DNA from: Streptomyces sp. P9-A4
GTDB lineage: Bacteria > Actinomycetota > Actinomycetes > Streptomycetales > Streptomycetaceae
Direction of reading: 5' to 3'
DNA length: 64,000 bases
NCBI RefSeq assembly: GCF_036634195.1
Contig: NZ_JAZIFY010000002.1
Location: forward strand, 372,001-436,000
Each line of letters begins with the position of its first letter. Positions within the stretch are counted from its first letter, which is position 1. Position numbers and translations under genes: made by a program. The notes beneath the pieces are model-generated. The model was not told the origin of the DNA. It did no database searches and saw only the letters and a list, made by a program, of their open reading frames with translations. Positions 32,879 to 45,480 of the stretch are shown piece after piece.

Positions 32879-33763
32879 TCAGACCCGGTCGGCCGCGATC
32901 AGGACGTACTGGAAGGAGCCGTCCTTGTACGACTCGATGAACGCCTCCTCGATGCCGGTGACCAGCGACGACGTGGCGCGCAGCTCCCAGTACGGCAGCG
33001 TGTCGGGCGTCAGGTCGATGACGGCCTGCGGGACGAGGCGGTTGTCGGCCATGGCGCGCAGGTACTCGCGGCGGGAGTGGATGTTGCACTCGAAGTGCGC
33101 GTTGATCTGGGAGACCCACTTCGAGGGCTGGCCGTAGCGCGGGTTCCAGCAGCCGGTGATGGTCACGTAGCGGCCACCGACCTTGAGGAAGCGCGAGTGC
33201 TCGGCGAAGAGGTCGTCGAGGTCGACGTACATGGTCGACTCGTTGTTCCACGAGCCGGCGATGGTGCCCTTCTCGAAGGGTGTGTCGAGCATGTTGCAGA
33301 CCTGGGCGTGGACGTGGTCGTCGATGCCCAGCTCCTTCGCGCGCCGGTTGCCGAAGTCGGCCTGCGTGGAGGAGAGGGTGACGCCCTCGACCTTGCAGCC
33401 GAAGCGCTGGTGGGCCATGACGCTCGAACCGCCGCGACCGCAGCCCGCGTCCACCAGCGTGTCGTCCCGCCCGATGGTGCCGAGGTTGTCCAGGAGGACC
33501 TCGGCCTGCGCGGACTCCAGGCGGTGCAGCTCGGCGATCAGCTTCTTCTCGTACTCGCTGTCCTCGGTGTCCCCGAGCGCGGAGTGGTCGACGGCGCCGA
33601 TGCCGTAGTGGTGGTGGTAGAGCCCGTCCACATCACCGAGGCGCAGGTTCACCGGCCTGGCCTCGGCGTTCCAGTAGCGGGCGATGTCACCTTGGTACGG
33701 CGTCGCCGGGGACGGGACGAACGCGGAAGTACCGTTGAGAGTGGTGAACTCGGTGCTGGTCAC
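32879..33763 (-). CDS. Geranyl diphosphate 2-C-methyltransferase (2-MIB pathway)
   Basis: A 294-residue SAM-dependent methyltransferase that makes 2-methyl-GPP for 2-methylisoborneol. The SAM loop LVDAGCGRGGSSVM is at residues 103-116; YWNAEARPVNLRLGDVDGLYH and HHYGIGAVDH near the N-terminus are typical of GPP methyltransferases and support GPP specificity over generic C-methylation. It starts at GTG 33763, 15 bp after the synthase stop, so the two are co-transcribed. The C-terminal part (IEEAFIESYKDGSFQYVLIAADRV region) is intact and the length is normal. Confidence 0.93.
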   Translation of the reverse strand: MTSTEFTTLNGTSAFVPSPATPYQGDIARYWNAEARPVNLRLGDVDGLYHHHYGIGAVDHSALGDTEDSEYEKKLIAELHRLESAQAEVLLDNLGTIGRDDTLVDAGCGRGGSSVMAHQRFGCKVEGVTLSSTQADFGNRRAKELGIDDHVHAQVCNMLDTPFEKGTIAGSWNNESTMYVDLDDLFAEHSRFLKVGGRYVTITGCWNPRYGQPSKWVSQINAHFECNIHSRREYLRAMADNRLVPQAVIDLTPDTLPYWELRATSSLVTGIEEAFIESYKDGSFQYVLIAADRV

Positions 33764-33778
33764 AGATGATTCCGTTTC

Positions 33779-35104
33779 TTACCAGAAGTCGGGCAGGCTG
33801 TAGCGGTAGGTGTTGGTCTGGTGCCAGTAGTGGTTGCCGTCGACCCACACGGCGACTCCCCGCAGGAAGCGCAGCACGCTCGGGACGGGGCAGGCCTCGG
33901 CGAGGGCGGCGGCTTCGGCCTCGAAGTCGCGCATCAGGTCGTTGTGGACCTCGACGGCCTTCAGGTAGCCGTCCCGGTCGGAGAGGCCCTCCCGGTCGGC
34001 GATCACCACGGGCAGGTTCAGATGGGTGCCGGGACTGGCGAGTTCCTTCATGTACGAGTAGAGGTCGTTCACGATGGTGGTGGCGTTCCCGGCCAGGGCG
34101 AGGACGCGCTGCATGGCCGGCTGGGCGTGCAGGTCCGCCGGCAGTTCGTAGCCGCCGACGGTGTCCGTGATCGTGGGGCAGGGGCGGAAGTTGTTGAACT
34201 GGCGCATCGCCAGGTACTCCCACACCTCCGGCACGTGGTCCGTCTCGGACCAGGCGGCCTCCGCGAGGTAGCCCAGGTGGAGCCGGGCCATGTCGTGGCG
34301 GAAGCGGTCGGCCTGGGAGGGGGTGGACTGCTTGACGAAGTAGTCCATGGCGGAGCGGTACGCGCGGCGCGGGGCGTCGGCGTGGAGCGACTCCGCCCAC
34401 CCGGGCTCGTACTCCTTCGTCGTGTGCAGGGGGTCGAGGGCGGTGTGGGCGAGGAGCAGCCGCCCGCCGAGTCCGATGGGCGAGCCGCCGTGGTCCTCGC
34501 AGTAGCAGTCGTCGACGGCGTTCTCGGCGACCATCAGACGGGTGGCGACCATCAGGTGCTCGACCGTCGGGGCGTCCGGGTGGCAGGCCACCATGTAGCG
34601 CCCGACGGAGAAGCCGTCGAACTCGCCCTCCCAGTCGTCGGGGTAGAGCTGCACCTCGTCCAGGGCCCAGGCCTTGATCCTGCGGCTGACCTCGTCCACC
34701 CGTACCGGGTCCGGATCGGGGACGGGGTGGAAGTAGAGGCCCGGGATCGGGCGGCCCTGGGCCGGGGCGGCGGGTGCCGGAGACTCCGGCGCGGCCGGTG
34801 CCTCCGAGCGCCGGGCCAGGGACAGGGCCGCCGTGCCCAGTCCGGTGGGTCCGCTCAGGACCCACGCCGGGGCGAGGGCCTCCGGCGCGGATACGCCGAC
34901 GGCCTCGGCCGACGGAGCGGAGACGACGCCCGGCAGGGCGGGAGCGACGGCCGGCGGGGCCGGGGCGGCCGTCGTCGGCGTGGCGACGACGGCCCCCTCC
35001 CCCACGGGCGTCGCGATCTTGAACTGGGCGAGCACATGTGCCCCGAAGTGGGCCGCGGCGGAGGGCAGGCTCGACTGCAGAGGGGAAGGCCCGGGTTCGG
35101 GCAT
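33779..35104 (-). CDS. 2-methylisoborneol synthase
   Basis: A 441-residue class I terpene cyclase turning 2-methyl-GPP into 2-methylisoborneol, an earthy odorant. The catalytic domain begins near residue 120; the Asp-rich motif is VDDCYCED (197-204), the NSE motif is NDLYSYMKE (346-354), and an RY pair lies near the C-terminus (TYRYSLPDFW). Residues 1-118 are a Pro/Ala-rich disordered extension with a more conserved-looking block LSGPTGLGTAALSLARR at about 83-99. In related systems this extension carries the signals that load the enzyme into the family 2B encapsulin, whose gene lies upstream. Confidence 0.93.
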   Translation of the reverse strand: MPEPGPSPLQSSLPSAAAHFGAHVLAQFKIATPVGEGAVVATPTTAAPAPPAVAPALPGVVSAPSAEAVGVSAPEALAPAWVLSGPTGLGTAALSLARRSEAPAAPESPAPAAPAQGRPIPGLYFHPVPDPDPVRVDEVSRRIKAWALDEVQLYPDDWEGEFDGFSVGRYMVACHPDAPTVEHLMVATRLMVAENAVDDCYCEDHGGSPIGLGGRLLLAHTALDPLHTTKEYEPGWAESLHADAPRRAYRSAMDYFVKQSTPSQADRFRHDMARLHLGYLAEAAWSETDHVPEVWEYLAMRQFNNFRPCPTITDTVGGYELPADLHAQPAMQRVLALAGNATTIVNDLYSYMKELASPGTHLNLPVVIADREGLSDRDGYLKAVEVHNDLMRDFEAEAAALAEACPVPSVLRFLRGVAVWVDGNHYWHQTNTYRYSLPDFW

Positions 35105-35212
35105 CCTTGACTCCTCGGTGAGATAAGTGGACTGTCCCGGACCCCGGGCACTCCGGGCCGGCCCGGGAAGATCCGGACTGTCACGGCCGCCGTGGCGGCC
35201 GGCGGGCGGCCC

Positions 35213-35226
35213 GACGACAGGCCCTA
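35213..35226. repeat. Stray terminal inverted repeat abutting the MITE
   Basis: GACGACAGGCCCTA directly abuts the left end of MITE copy 1, forming GACGACAGGCCCTAG followed by its mirror GGCCTGTCGTC. Only about 14 bp of this extra end are present. It could be the remains of a second element, or a target that happened to resemble the terminal repeat. Confidence 0.5.
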
Positions 35227-35399
35227 GGGCCTGTCGTCACACTCCCGTCGTCGCCCGAAGGGCGGCCCCGCGGCGTCTGGTGCGTGCTCTCGGCGTGCCG
35301 GGCGGAAGCCCTCGTACTGGACGTACTCGGGCTTTCGCCCGGTGCGGCGAGAGCGCGTGCCAGGCGTCGTGGGGCAGGCGGGAGTGTGACGACAGGTCC
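35227..35399. mobile_element. MITE copy 1 (173 bp, TA target) between encapsulin and 2-MIB synthase genes
   Basis: Terminal inverted repeats GGGCCTGTCGTCACACTCCC and the mirror GGGAGTGTGACGACAGGTCC are flanked by TA on both sides (35225-35226 and 35400-35401), as for IS630/Tc1-type insertions. The interior is an imperfect full-length hairpin with no coding capacity. Copy 2 lies inverted at 43559-43732 and is nearly identical. The right end plus target TA supplies the TAG stop of the encapsulin gene. Confidence 0.85.
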
Positions 35400-36811
35400 T
35401 AGTCGCGCCTGCGGGCGATCTGCACGTTCTCCAGCACGCCCAGCGCGTTGGGCACGAGGATGGCGGCGGAGTAGTAGGTGGTGACGAGGTAGGACATGAT
35501 CGCCTGCTCGCTGATGCCCATGAAGCGGACCGAGAGGCCGGGCTCGTACTCCTCCGGGAGGCCGGTCTGACGCAGGCCGATGACGCCCTGGTTGTCCTCG
35601 CCGAGACGCATCGCGAGGATCGAGGTGGTGTTCTCCTGGCTGATGGGGATCTTGTTGCACGGGAGGATCGGGACCCCGCGCCAGCTCGGGACCTGGTGCC
35701 CGTCGAGGTCGACGGTGTCCGGGTACAGCCCGCGGGCGTTCCACTCGCGTCCGATGGCCGCGATGGCCTTGGGGTGGGCGAGGAAGAGCTTGGTGCCGCG
35801 GCGGCGGCAGAGCAGCTCGTCGAGGTCGTCCGGGGTGGGCGGGCCGGAGTGGGTCTGGATCCGCTGCTTGAAGTCGGCGTTGTGGAGGAGGCCGAACTCG
35901 CGGTTGTTGACGAGCTCGTGCTCCTGGCGCTCGCGCAGCGCCTCGACGGTGAGCCTGAGCTGCTCCTCCGTCTGGTTCATCGGCCCGTTGTAGAGGTCGG
36001 CGACCCTGGTGTGGACCCGCAGGACGGTCTGGGCGACGGAGAGTTCGTACTCGCGCGGCTTGAGCTCGTAGTCGACGAAGGCGCCCGGCAGCGCGATCTC
36101 GCCGGTGTGGCCGGCCGACATCCCGATCTCGGCCTCGCCGTGACGGTTCTGCCGCTGGAGCGGCAGCGAGCTGAACTCCTGGAGGTGGGCCCGCAGGCCC
36201 GGCGCCGAGGCCTGGACGGCGGCGAACTCGGCCCGGGAGAGGGTGAGCAGCGTGCCGGAGGTCTCGGCGGTGGCGGTGTAGTCCCATCGGGCGTCGGCGT
36301 CCAGAAGGGCGTTCTCACCGAACCGGTCGCCGTCGGCGAGCACGGCCACGGCCACGGCGTCGCCGTACTTGCCGACCGAGGTCTGGTTGATCCGGCCGTG
36401 GGCGATCAGGTGGATCTCGTCGGCGGGCGTGCCGCGCTCGACCAGTACCTCTCCGGCGCTGAAGTCGCGCTGGACGCAGCGGCCGGCCAGGGCGTTCAGC
36501 ACCTCCTCGTCCTCGAAGCCGCGCAGCAGCGCGAGTTCGCCGAGCTCGCGCGGGATGACCCGGACGTGGGCGCCGTCCTGGACGAACTCGATGCGCCCGT
36601 CCCCGACGGTGTAGCTGAGCCGGCGGTTGACCCGGTAGGCGCCGCCCTTGGTCTCCACCCAGGGGAGCATCCGCAGCAGCCAGCGGGAGCTGATCTCCTG
36701 CATCTGGGGTGCGGACTTGGTCGTGGTGGCGAGGTTCCGGGCAGCCGCGGTGCTCAGGCTGGACTGCTTCGGCGCGTCCAGCTGTGCGTCCGGGCTCGTG
36801 TCAACGCTCAT
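35399..36811 (-). CDS. Family 2B encapsulin shell protein with cNMP-binding-like domain (EshA-like)
   Basis: A 470-residue protein often labelled Crp/Fnr regulator but lacking an HTH. Order: polar N-terminal arm (1-60), start of the HK97-like fold, a cyclic-nucleotide-binding-like insertion (about 95-200, with [18 protein letters not shown] and [17 protein letters not shown]), then the rest of the shell fold ([28 protein letters not shown]-like helices, [33 protein letters not shown]). This is the encapsulin 2B architecture associated with terpene cyclases in Streptomyces. ATG 36811 has a GGAGAG site. The TAG stop is formed by the MITE end, so the native C-terminus may have been changed. Confidence 0.88.
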
Positions 36812-43558: not shown

Positions 43559-43732
43559 GGGCCTGTCGTCAAACTCCCGCCTGCCCCACGACGCCTGGCA
43601 CGCGCTCTCGCCGCACCGGGCGAAAGCCCAAGTACGGTCCAGTACGAGGGCTTCCGCCCGGCACGCCGAGAGCACGCACCAGACGCCGCGGGGCCGCCCT
43701 TCGGGCGACGACGGGAATTTGACGACAGGCCC
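43559..43732. mobile_element. MITE copy 2 (174 bp, TA target), inverted relative to copy 1
   Basis: Ends GGGCCTGTCGTCAAACTCCC and the mirror GGGAATTTGACGACAGGCCC, flanked by TA (43557-43558 and 43733-43734). Reverse-complemented it aligns with copy 1 along its whole length with a handful of differences, mostly near the ends plus one extra base in the centre. No ORF of its own. Its right end with the target TA forms the TAG stop codon of the BCCT transporter. Confidence 0.88.
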
Positions 43733-45480
43733 TAGCCCCTGTCGTCCGCCGACCCCGGGGAGCCGGGGCCGATACGCAGCTCGAAGTCGCCGTCGTACTG
43801 CTCGTGGCCAGCGATCACGGCGAGTTCGACGACCTCGACCCCCACCTCGCCGCGCACGATCAGCGGGTCCTTGCGCAGGTCGCGCATGAGGGCCACGCAC
43901 ATGCCGATCATCACCAGGACGAACGGCGCCGCCACCAGGATGGTGAGGTTCTGCAGGCCCGCGAGCGCGTCGCCCTGCCCGTCGCCGATCAGGAGCATGA
44001 TCGCGGCGACCGCCCCGGTCACCACACCCCAGAACACCACGACGAGTCGGGCGGGTTCGAAGGCGCCGCGCTGGGAGAGCGTGCCCATGACGATCGACGC
44101 GGCGTCGGCGCCCGACACGAAGAAGATCCCGACGAGGACCATCACGAGCAGACTCATCGCGCCGGCCATCGGGAACTCCTTGAGCACGCCGAAGAGTTGC
44201 CCCTCGGGGGTGGTCTCCCCCGCAAGTTCGCCCTGCTCGCTGAGCTTCATCGCCGTACCGCCGAAGATCGCGAACCACACGAGGCTGACGGTGCTGGGGA
44301 CCAGGATGACCCCGCCGATGAACTGGCGGATGGTCCGGCCCCGGCTGATCCGGGCGATGAACATCCCGACAAAGGGCGTCCAGGAAATCCACCACGCCCA
44401 GTAGAAGACCGTCCAACTGCCCAGCCAGCTATGGATGTTCTGGCCGCTGGTCGCCTCGGTGCGGCCGGCCAGCTGGGCCAGGTCACCGACGTACGCGGCG
44501 ATCGAGGTGGGGAGCAGGTCGAGCACGATGATGGTGGGGCCGGCCACGAAGACGAAGACGGCGAGCACGGCCGCCAGCACCATGTTGATGTTGGAGAGCC
44601 ACTGGATGCCCTTCTCCACACCGGACACGGCGGACAGGACGAAGGCCACGGTCAGTACGGCGATGATGGCGACGAGCAGCCCGGTGCCAGCCTTCTCCAT
44701 CCAGCCCAGCTCCTCGAAGCCGCTGCCGATCTGGAGCGCGCCGAGCCCCAGCGAGGCCGCGGAGCCGAAGAGCGTGGCGAAGATGGCCAGGATGTCGATG
44801 AACCGCCCGGGTCCGCCGTACGCCCGCCGCTCCCCCATCAGCGGGACGAACACCGCGCTGATGGTCTGGCGGCGGCGCCGCCGGAACGTCGAGTACGCGA
44901 TGGCGAGTCCGACGACGGCGTAGATCGCCCACGGGTGGAGCGTCCAGTGGAAGAGGGTGGTGGCCATCGCGGTCTGCATCCGCTCCGCCGAGTCGGCGGG
45001 GTGGGTGCCGGGCGGCGGGGTGCCGTAGTGGGCGAGCGGCTCGCTCACCCCGTAGAACATCAGGCCGATGCCCATGCCCGCGCTGAACATCATGGCGATC
45101 CATGACACCGTCCGGAACTCCGGCCCCTCGCCCTCCTGGCCGAGGGTGATCCGGCCGTAGCGGCTGATGGCGAGCCACAGCGCGAAGACGACGAAGCCGG
45201 AGGCCGCGAGCATGAAGGCCCAGCCGCCGTTGCGGATCAGCCCGTCGAGCAGGCTGCTCGACGCGCTCTCCAGGCTGTCCGTGGCCGTGGCACCCCAGAC
45301 GACGAAGGCCACGGTGAGGACGGCGCTGACACCGAACACGATCCGGTCGGTGCGGGCGTGATGGTGGTGGTCGGGGCGGCCAGGGAGGTCCGCCGTGACC
45401 GGCAGCCCTTCCCTGCCGCCCCGTTCGGCACCGGTTCGGCGCCCGTCCGGCCTCTCGTCTTCCTGCGACACAGATGACAC
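43732..45480 (-). CDS. BCCT family betaine/choline/carnitine transporter
   Basis: A 582-residue transporter of the BetP/BCCT type, importing a trimethylammonium or betaine osmolyte with Na+ or H+. It has twelve hydrophobic helices; family motifs are MMFSAGMGIGLMFYGVSEPL (unwound helix 3), YWAWWISWTPFVGMFIARIS (helix 8 aromatic box) and SRGRTIRQFIGG. The N-terminal tail holds an HHHH run. GTG 45480 is the longest start; a GTG at 45471 is also possible. The C-terminus ends at a TAG made by the adjacent MITE, so the last residues (GPGSPGSADDRG) may not be ancestral. Confidence 0.92.
   Translation of the reverse strand: MSSVSQEDERPDGRRTGAERGGREGLPVTADLPGRPDHHHHARTDRIVFGVSAVLTVAFVVWGATATDSLESASSSLLDGLIRNGGWAFMLAASGFVVFALWLAISRYGRITLGQEGEGPEFRTVSWIAMMFSAGMGIGLMFYGVSEPLAHYGTPPPGTHPADSAERMQTAMATTLFHWTLHPWAIYAVVGLAIAYSTFRRRRRQTISAVFVPLMGERRAYGGPGRFIDILAIFATLFGSAASLGLGALQIGSGFEELGWMEKAGTGLLVAIIAVLTVAFVLSAVSGVEKGIQWLSNINMVLAAVLAVFVFVAGPTIIVLDLLPTSIAAYVGDLAQLAGRTEATSGQNIHSWLGSWTVFYWAWWISWTPFVGMFIARISRGRTIRQFIGGVILVPSTVSLVWFAIFGGTAMKLSEQGELAGETTPEGQLFGVLKEFPMAGAMSLLVMVLVGIFFVSGADAASIVMGTLSQRGAFEPARLVVVFWGVVTGAVAAIMLLIGDGQGDALAGLQNLTILVAAPFVLVMIGMCVALMRDLRKDPLIVRGEVGVEVVELAVIAGHEQYDGDFELRIGPGSPGSADDRG

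Follow-up and report, generated by a model that had tools for sequence, protein, structure and literature searches.

A family 2B encapsulin shell gene of Streptomyces sp. P9-A4 with a miniature inverted-repeat element on its stop codon

The terpene-cyclase operons of family 2B encapsulins are described, in the excerpted text of PMC8346489, as combining a shell protein that carries a cNMP-binding domain with a cyclase resembling 2-methylisoborneol (2-MIB) synthase and a C-methyltransferase. We have analysed such a locus in a 64,000-nucleotide stretch of Streptomyces sp. P9-A4 DNA (contig NZ_JAZIFY010000002.1, positions 372,001 to 436,000; hereafter the window), in which a miniature inverted-repeat transposable element (MITE) lies between the shell gene and the gene for its putative cargo, the synthase. 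It has the same kinds of gene as the operons in that excerpt, from which it differs by one unusual feature, the inserted element. Two described MITEs provide the closest comparison for the element itself. The Chunjie MITE of Geobacter uraniireducens resembles it as a short non-autonomous element inside an operon, and the title of the Chunjie report, as it is cited in the review PMC10969869, speaks of undisturbed operon structure; in contrast to the present case, the excerpted review has a full-length element disrupting one of the phosphate uptake operon copies, and neither ‘stop codon’ nor ‘CTAG’ occurs in its main text. MITEAba12 of Acinetobacter is thought to be mobilized by ISAba12, a co-resident insertion sequence (IS) with matching ends, a likeness to the situation proposed below, but it generates 9-bp AT-rich target duplications, and no stop-codon targeting is mentioned in the excerpt of PMC6382973. 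Among the open-licence matches listed, no paper title dealt with CTAG-targeting MITEs at Streptomyces stop codons.

We consider it very probable that a non-autonomous MITE of the IS5 type landed on the C-TAG stop of the shell gene (a TAG stop codon preceded by C) by way of a CTAG-duplicating transposase, and that the insertion was tolerated. The direct support for this consists of the CTAG flanks, the position on the stop codon, the copy number of the element, the presence of differing elements in relatives and one empty site (L032/L030). A transposase inserting the MITE at CTAG would duplicate the tetramer; the landing on the shell stop would be recent and the duplicated CTAG would restore TAG. 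The shell reading frame ends GAC-TAG and, because duplication of CTAG restores the gene's own TAG, the shell protein is unchanged, which may be why the insertion was tolerated. The insertion events probably took place in the order suggested below, with what was presumably a near-neutral effect on the operon.

Shell, synthase and methyltransferase genes share one orientation, on the minus strand, and each exceeds its own NCBIfam cut-off, which is 400 for NF041163, NF041167 and NF041943 alike (Table 1). Pfam and NCBIfam matches identify an SrpI-like shell with a cNMP domain, as expected of a family 2B encapsulin, and NCBIfam places a cyclase of the 2-MIB synthase type and a C-methyltransferase next to it, as in an encapsulin operon; indeed, NF041167 bears the name family 2 encapsulin cargo terpene cyclase. 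Coordinates, strands and NCBIfam matches thus agree with the original prediction that these three genes are co-oriented. That prediction also gave a distance of about 290 bp between shell and synthase, which stands (294 bp from shell stop to synthase start), and a palindrome of 173 bp, which needs correction to 171 bp when the flanking CTAG copies are left out.

Table 1. Features of the encapsulin locus and of the second family-A element in the window
Feature	Position	Strand	Evidence
Geranyl diphosphate 2-C-methyltransferase	32879..33763	-	NF041943, 480.4 bits
2-MIB-synthase-type terpene cyclase, putative cargo	33779..35104	-	PF19086; NF041167, 494.2 bits
Synthase leader, 72 nt, with ribosome site GAGGAG	35105..35176	-	Alignment with relatives
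GACGACAGGCC, 11 bp, probably left over from an earlier family-A end next to the same CTAG	35213..35223	.	11/12 match to family end
CTAG, other copy of the target duplication	35224..35227	.	
MITE, family A, 171-bp palindrome, ends GGCCTGTCGTCACACTCCCG / GACCTGTCGTCACACTCCCG	35228..35398	.	
CTAG, made up of the shell stop TAG and the C before it; a copy of the target duplication	35399..35402	.	
Family 2B encapsulin shell gene, 470 amino acids, cNMP-binding and SrpI-like	35399..36811	-	PF19307, 464 bits; PF00027, 56 bits; NF041163, 774.5 bits
Second family-A MITE of the window, 97% identical, on the TAG stop of the BCCT transporter gene	43560..43731	.	
BCCT transporter gene	43732-45480	-	PF02028, 580 bits

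By its sequence the element is a non-autonomous MITE. It was detected as an inverted repeat at 35224-35402, with one CTAG included on each side; it is short and free of a transposase, and its terminal 16 nucleotides match in 15 of 16 positions, a value reached by none of 200 shuffles. Searching the genome with its own element returned 19 full or nearly full copies of this family, termed family A, at 91-100% identity and dispersed together with shorter derivatives. The search gave 76 matches in all, a figure which is not a copy number because the palindrome was often found twice at one place, on both strands, and because 40 of 130 candidates were scored. In 17 of the 19 full or nearly full copies CTAG flanks both sides, the expected trace of a target site duplication. 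Repeats, copies and CTAG flanks therefore agree with the view that the palindrome between shell gene and putative 2-MIB cargo gene is MITE-like, and the observation of an element between the two genes is confirmed. Matches were also present in 27 of 72,556 plasmid records (25 from Streptomyces and two from Embleya); of two plasmid regions inspected, one held seven annotated genes, none of them for a transposase, and the other was without annotation.

Both family-A copies of the window sit on TAG stops, one on that of the shell gene and the other on that of the BCCT transporter gene, where the flank opposite the stop reads TTAG. By eye, the last residues of the BCCT gene product, DDRG, look as though they stem from an older element end (9/12 match). 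Elsewhere in the genome (L006, G000:C1:2228770) a full family-A copy stands in tandem with another family-A end across a single CTAG, again on a gene stop; the C-terminus encoded by that gene resembles that of a principal sigma factor.

The target tetramer is scarce in this genome. A 400-kb sample contained 68 occurrences of CTAG, where base composition predicts about 1008, and 17 of the 68 were gene-like stops. Of the 18 family-A copies with a usable TAG, 14 lay where that TAG ends a gene-like open reading frame; the same held for 10 of the 49 CTAG sites that had no family-A end next to them (Fisher test, one-sided, p = 2.8e-5; seven sites beside such ends, four of them at gene-like stops, were excluded from the 49). 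Since CTAG is rare and between a fifth and a quarter of its occurrences are at gene-like stops, surviving insertions would gather at gene ends. CTAG seems to be avoided even at stop codons, as C-TAG stops are rare and G-TAG stops common in the sample (17 and 180 of 504 gene-like open reading frames, respectively; L108-L127). After insertion, the CTAG on each side could serve as a new landing site for further elements, and five of the 18 copies do abut another CTAG element or remnant, namely three family-A ends, one IS5-family element and one DDE_5 element.

A resident IS5-family element offers a candidate for the mobilizing activity. It measures 898 bp including both CTAG copies, all six copies that we compared lie between CTAG and CTAG, and its frames match NF033580, DUF4096 and DDE_Tnp_1. 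It has the flanking tetramer in common with the MITE and one end that is similar to the MITE ends, and differs from it in having transposase frames. Against one family-A end variant its ends match in 14/16 and 11/16 positions, and the window MITE's own two end types match its better end in 12/16 and 11/16. We infer that the IS5-family transposase, or a relative of it, moves the family-A MITE. A DDE_5 element at C1:332.25-333.70 kb, which we take to be of the IS701 type, is also CTAG-flanked and was rejected as the parent because its ends differ. At that place (L017/L142, G000:C1:332209-333879) the DDE_5 element, with its own ends TAGGGCTTGGTCAGG, stands between CTAG copies and is flanked by one partial and one full family-A MITE. 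A further transposase element of about 900 bp (L157, L158), likewise between CTAG copies, has ends GCCGTTTCCTTCGGATCA that resemble the family-B hairpins which other species carry at the shell stop.

Comparison of the shell stop among relatives drew on a scan of genome contigs, in which 260 related synthase loci were reduced to the best 80, and on two whole-genome searches (61 and 71 genomes, partly shared) that added further loci, the 12 most distant matches of the first of these searches (L187-L198) being left unused. Of the 101 loci handled, including the window's own (L179), 11 had no complete shell gene beside the synthase (L054, L055, L068, L073, L076, L081, L082, L084, L090, L104 and L203), some of them being cut by contig ends; four presumed duplicates (L095, L182, L201, L202), one locus with the wrong neighbour (L067) and one with a short shell (L040) were dropped before tree construction, and 84 were placed on the tree. 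By our labels, an element or remnant was present at 13 of these 84 junctions, all of them in the 46 rows whose stop is C-TAG and none in the 38 rows with other stops. Eight loci had complete hairpins anchored at the stop with a gap above 150 bp (the window, L032, L035, L036, L037, L038, L074 and L180); L059, L069 and L181, whose gaps are 105-110 bp, satisfy the repeat criterion on its own and were left uncounted. The remaining 71 junctions had no recognized element. Presence of the element in all orthologous operons as a conserved feature, which would have counted against the original interpretation, is therefore not what these junctions show; with 13 of 84 occupied, and other hairpins at the same stop, the window element is neither a conserved part of the operon nor unique. 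Such recurrence would be expected if the target tetramer doubles as the gene end.

At least five kinds of ends can be distinguished among the complete hairpins, whose inner arms and centres are partly common, and 11 of the 13 occupied junctions fall in a single clade of 14 rows. Both features, together with the composite appearance of L031, would suit a single filling of the site in an ancestor, after which recombination with other copies, and not separate insertions, supplied the different elements. We regard this as improbable: the terminal repeats outside the common arms differ, exact CTAG copies flank the elements of the window, L038 and L074, and the same clade contains element-free junctions (L030, L069 and L181).

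A clean empty site was obtained for L032. Once the 193-bp element is removed together with one CTAG-like copy, the sequence matches L030 nearly base for base across the stop. The flanks of the window element likewise match L181 and L069, except for a short stretch adjoining CTAG; the 11-bp GACGACAGGCC is missing from the empty sites of both. The nearest relative, L028, carries a 60-bp version of the element on the same stop codon. Taken together, these comparisons suggest that the window element is a younger copy whose landing site was the CTAG left by an earlier family-A element that has since decayed. A clean empty site could not be demonstrated for L038, L074 or L180, whose flanks align poorly with those of the nearest empty relative, and the comparison for L031 used an element length that was off by a few bases.

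Several results weigh against insertion at a stop-codon target. The size of the stop-codon excess depends on the gene test, since a looser definition of gene-like shows much less of it: under that definition 11 of 18 copies are at gene-like stops, as are 55 of the 146 CTAG sites counted over 80 loci and 7 of the 10 counted in the window. Family-A ends abut one another on 3 of 36 sides, which is no excess over 7 of 136 control CTAG sides, a control that itself contains element ends. The two ends of the IS5-family element are unlike each other. Occupancy labels were assigned non-blind, and five of the 13 (L028, L029, L031, L033 and L199) denote remnants or composites recognized by eye from partial end matches. 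In tree-independent pairs the association of C-TAG with occupancy was not significant (11 pairs, on average 1.5 informative, median p 0.5). Of the eight complete hairpins, only those of the window, L038 and L074 have an exact CTAG at their far flank. Gaps of at least 150 bp without assignable content occur in six of the 38 non-C-TAG rows and in eight C-TAG rows; among the former rows, L075 has a weak anchored repeat (12/16) and L183 an L074-like end located away from the stop. Finally, complete hairpins occupy 7 of 46 C-TAG shell stops, the window excluded, whereas the 18 further gene-like C-TAG stops of these loci are all free of them (p = 0.086); in the sample from the window's own genome 2 of 17 C-TAG stops are occupied.

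These occupancy counts bear on whether selection keeps hairpins at the shell-cargo junction because they serve a purpose in the encapsulin operon. The absence of hairpins from the 18 other stops and the variety of ends at one site lend this some support, but the excess is not significant, C-TAG stops elsewhere in the genome are occupied too, and most junctions lack a recognized element. We consider such selection highly improbable and have rejected the encapsulin operon as a special hotspot. Among orthologs of the BCCT gene (15 of 22 matches were used, the seven distant ones being excluded) none has a C-TAG stop and no anchored hairpin was found, which fits the target rule and carries no information on hotspots.

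It had originally been suggested that the hairpin could terminate, process or attenuate the message and so change the shell:cargo ratio. This suggestion is compatible with insertion by a transposase, and two lines of evidence favour it. The sense-strand RNA of the junction (328 nt) folds at -200.5 kcal/mol (z = -8.5), and none of 100 shuffles was as stable; moreover, MITE RNA of Neisseria and Yersinia affects neighbouring mRNA, according to the excerpted text of PMC2229807. Against it, consensus scans of 34900-35500 found no T-run (rho-independent) terminator, for which loops of 3-8 were covered, and no sigma-70-like promoter, and the element is not conserved at the shell stop across relatives. 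Shell and cargo, furthermore, may not share a message: the excerpt of PMC3072421 describes the S. coelicolor cyclase and methyltransferase as a two-gene operon that has the cnb gene upstream of it, so that a single message is less safely assumed, although its authors reason, the gaps being under 100 bp, that all three genes ought to constitute one operon. Even without a T-run, a long hairpin rich in GC could have an effect. On balance an effect of the hairpin on the message seems doubtful; a change of the shell:cargo ratio by the element is possible but unnecessary for explaining the insertion.

In the window strain the insertion has left the synthase leader and its ribosome site in place. The leader is conserved in sequence, with a mean column identity of 75% among 41 relatives with and without elements, an alignment chosen out of 67 sequences; it is recognizable only in its last part in L035 and L036, and no start motif was found in L038. 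A conserved RNA hairpin in this leader was considered and rejected, as covariation did not rise above that of shuffles (323 of 500 were as high). The stem as drawn is formed in 83.5% of alignment cells, compared with 14-62% when slid, and RNAalifold gave a different, weak structure for the leader and none over the 67 sequences.

The original interpretation is, as a whole, partly supported; it overlooked the exact placement on the stop codon through CTAG duplication, the intact shell protein and (in this strain) synthase leader, and the other elements in relatives. A mobile element whose target is the shell stop, recurring in related species, is in our judgement the best explanation, in preference to a purposeful break of the operon. 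A bolder extension is that modular CTAG miniature elements, with interchangeable ends and common inner arms, use the C-TAG stops of Streptomyces as safe pads, the encapsulin junction being a serial pad at which changing hairpins would retune the amount of cargo per shell; we hold this to be decidedly improbable. The placement on a stop codon suggests a low-cost mode of spread in a compact GC-rich genome, in which the target tetramer is scarce, often lies at a stop codon and is restored on insertion. The locus also provides a set of natural variants, in which the junction of the two genes is empty or holds a short, a long or a tandem hairpin, with which the influence of an intergenic hairpin on the balance of shell and cargo may be studied.

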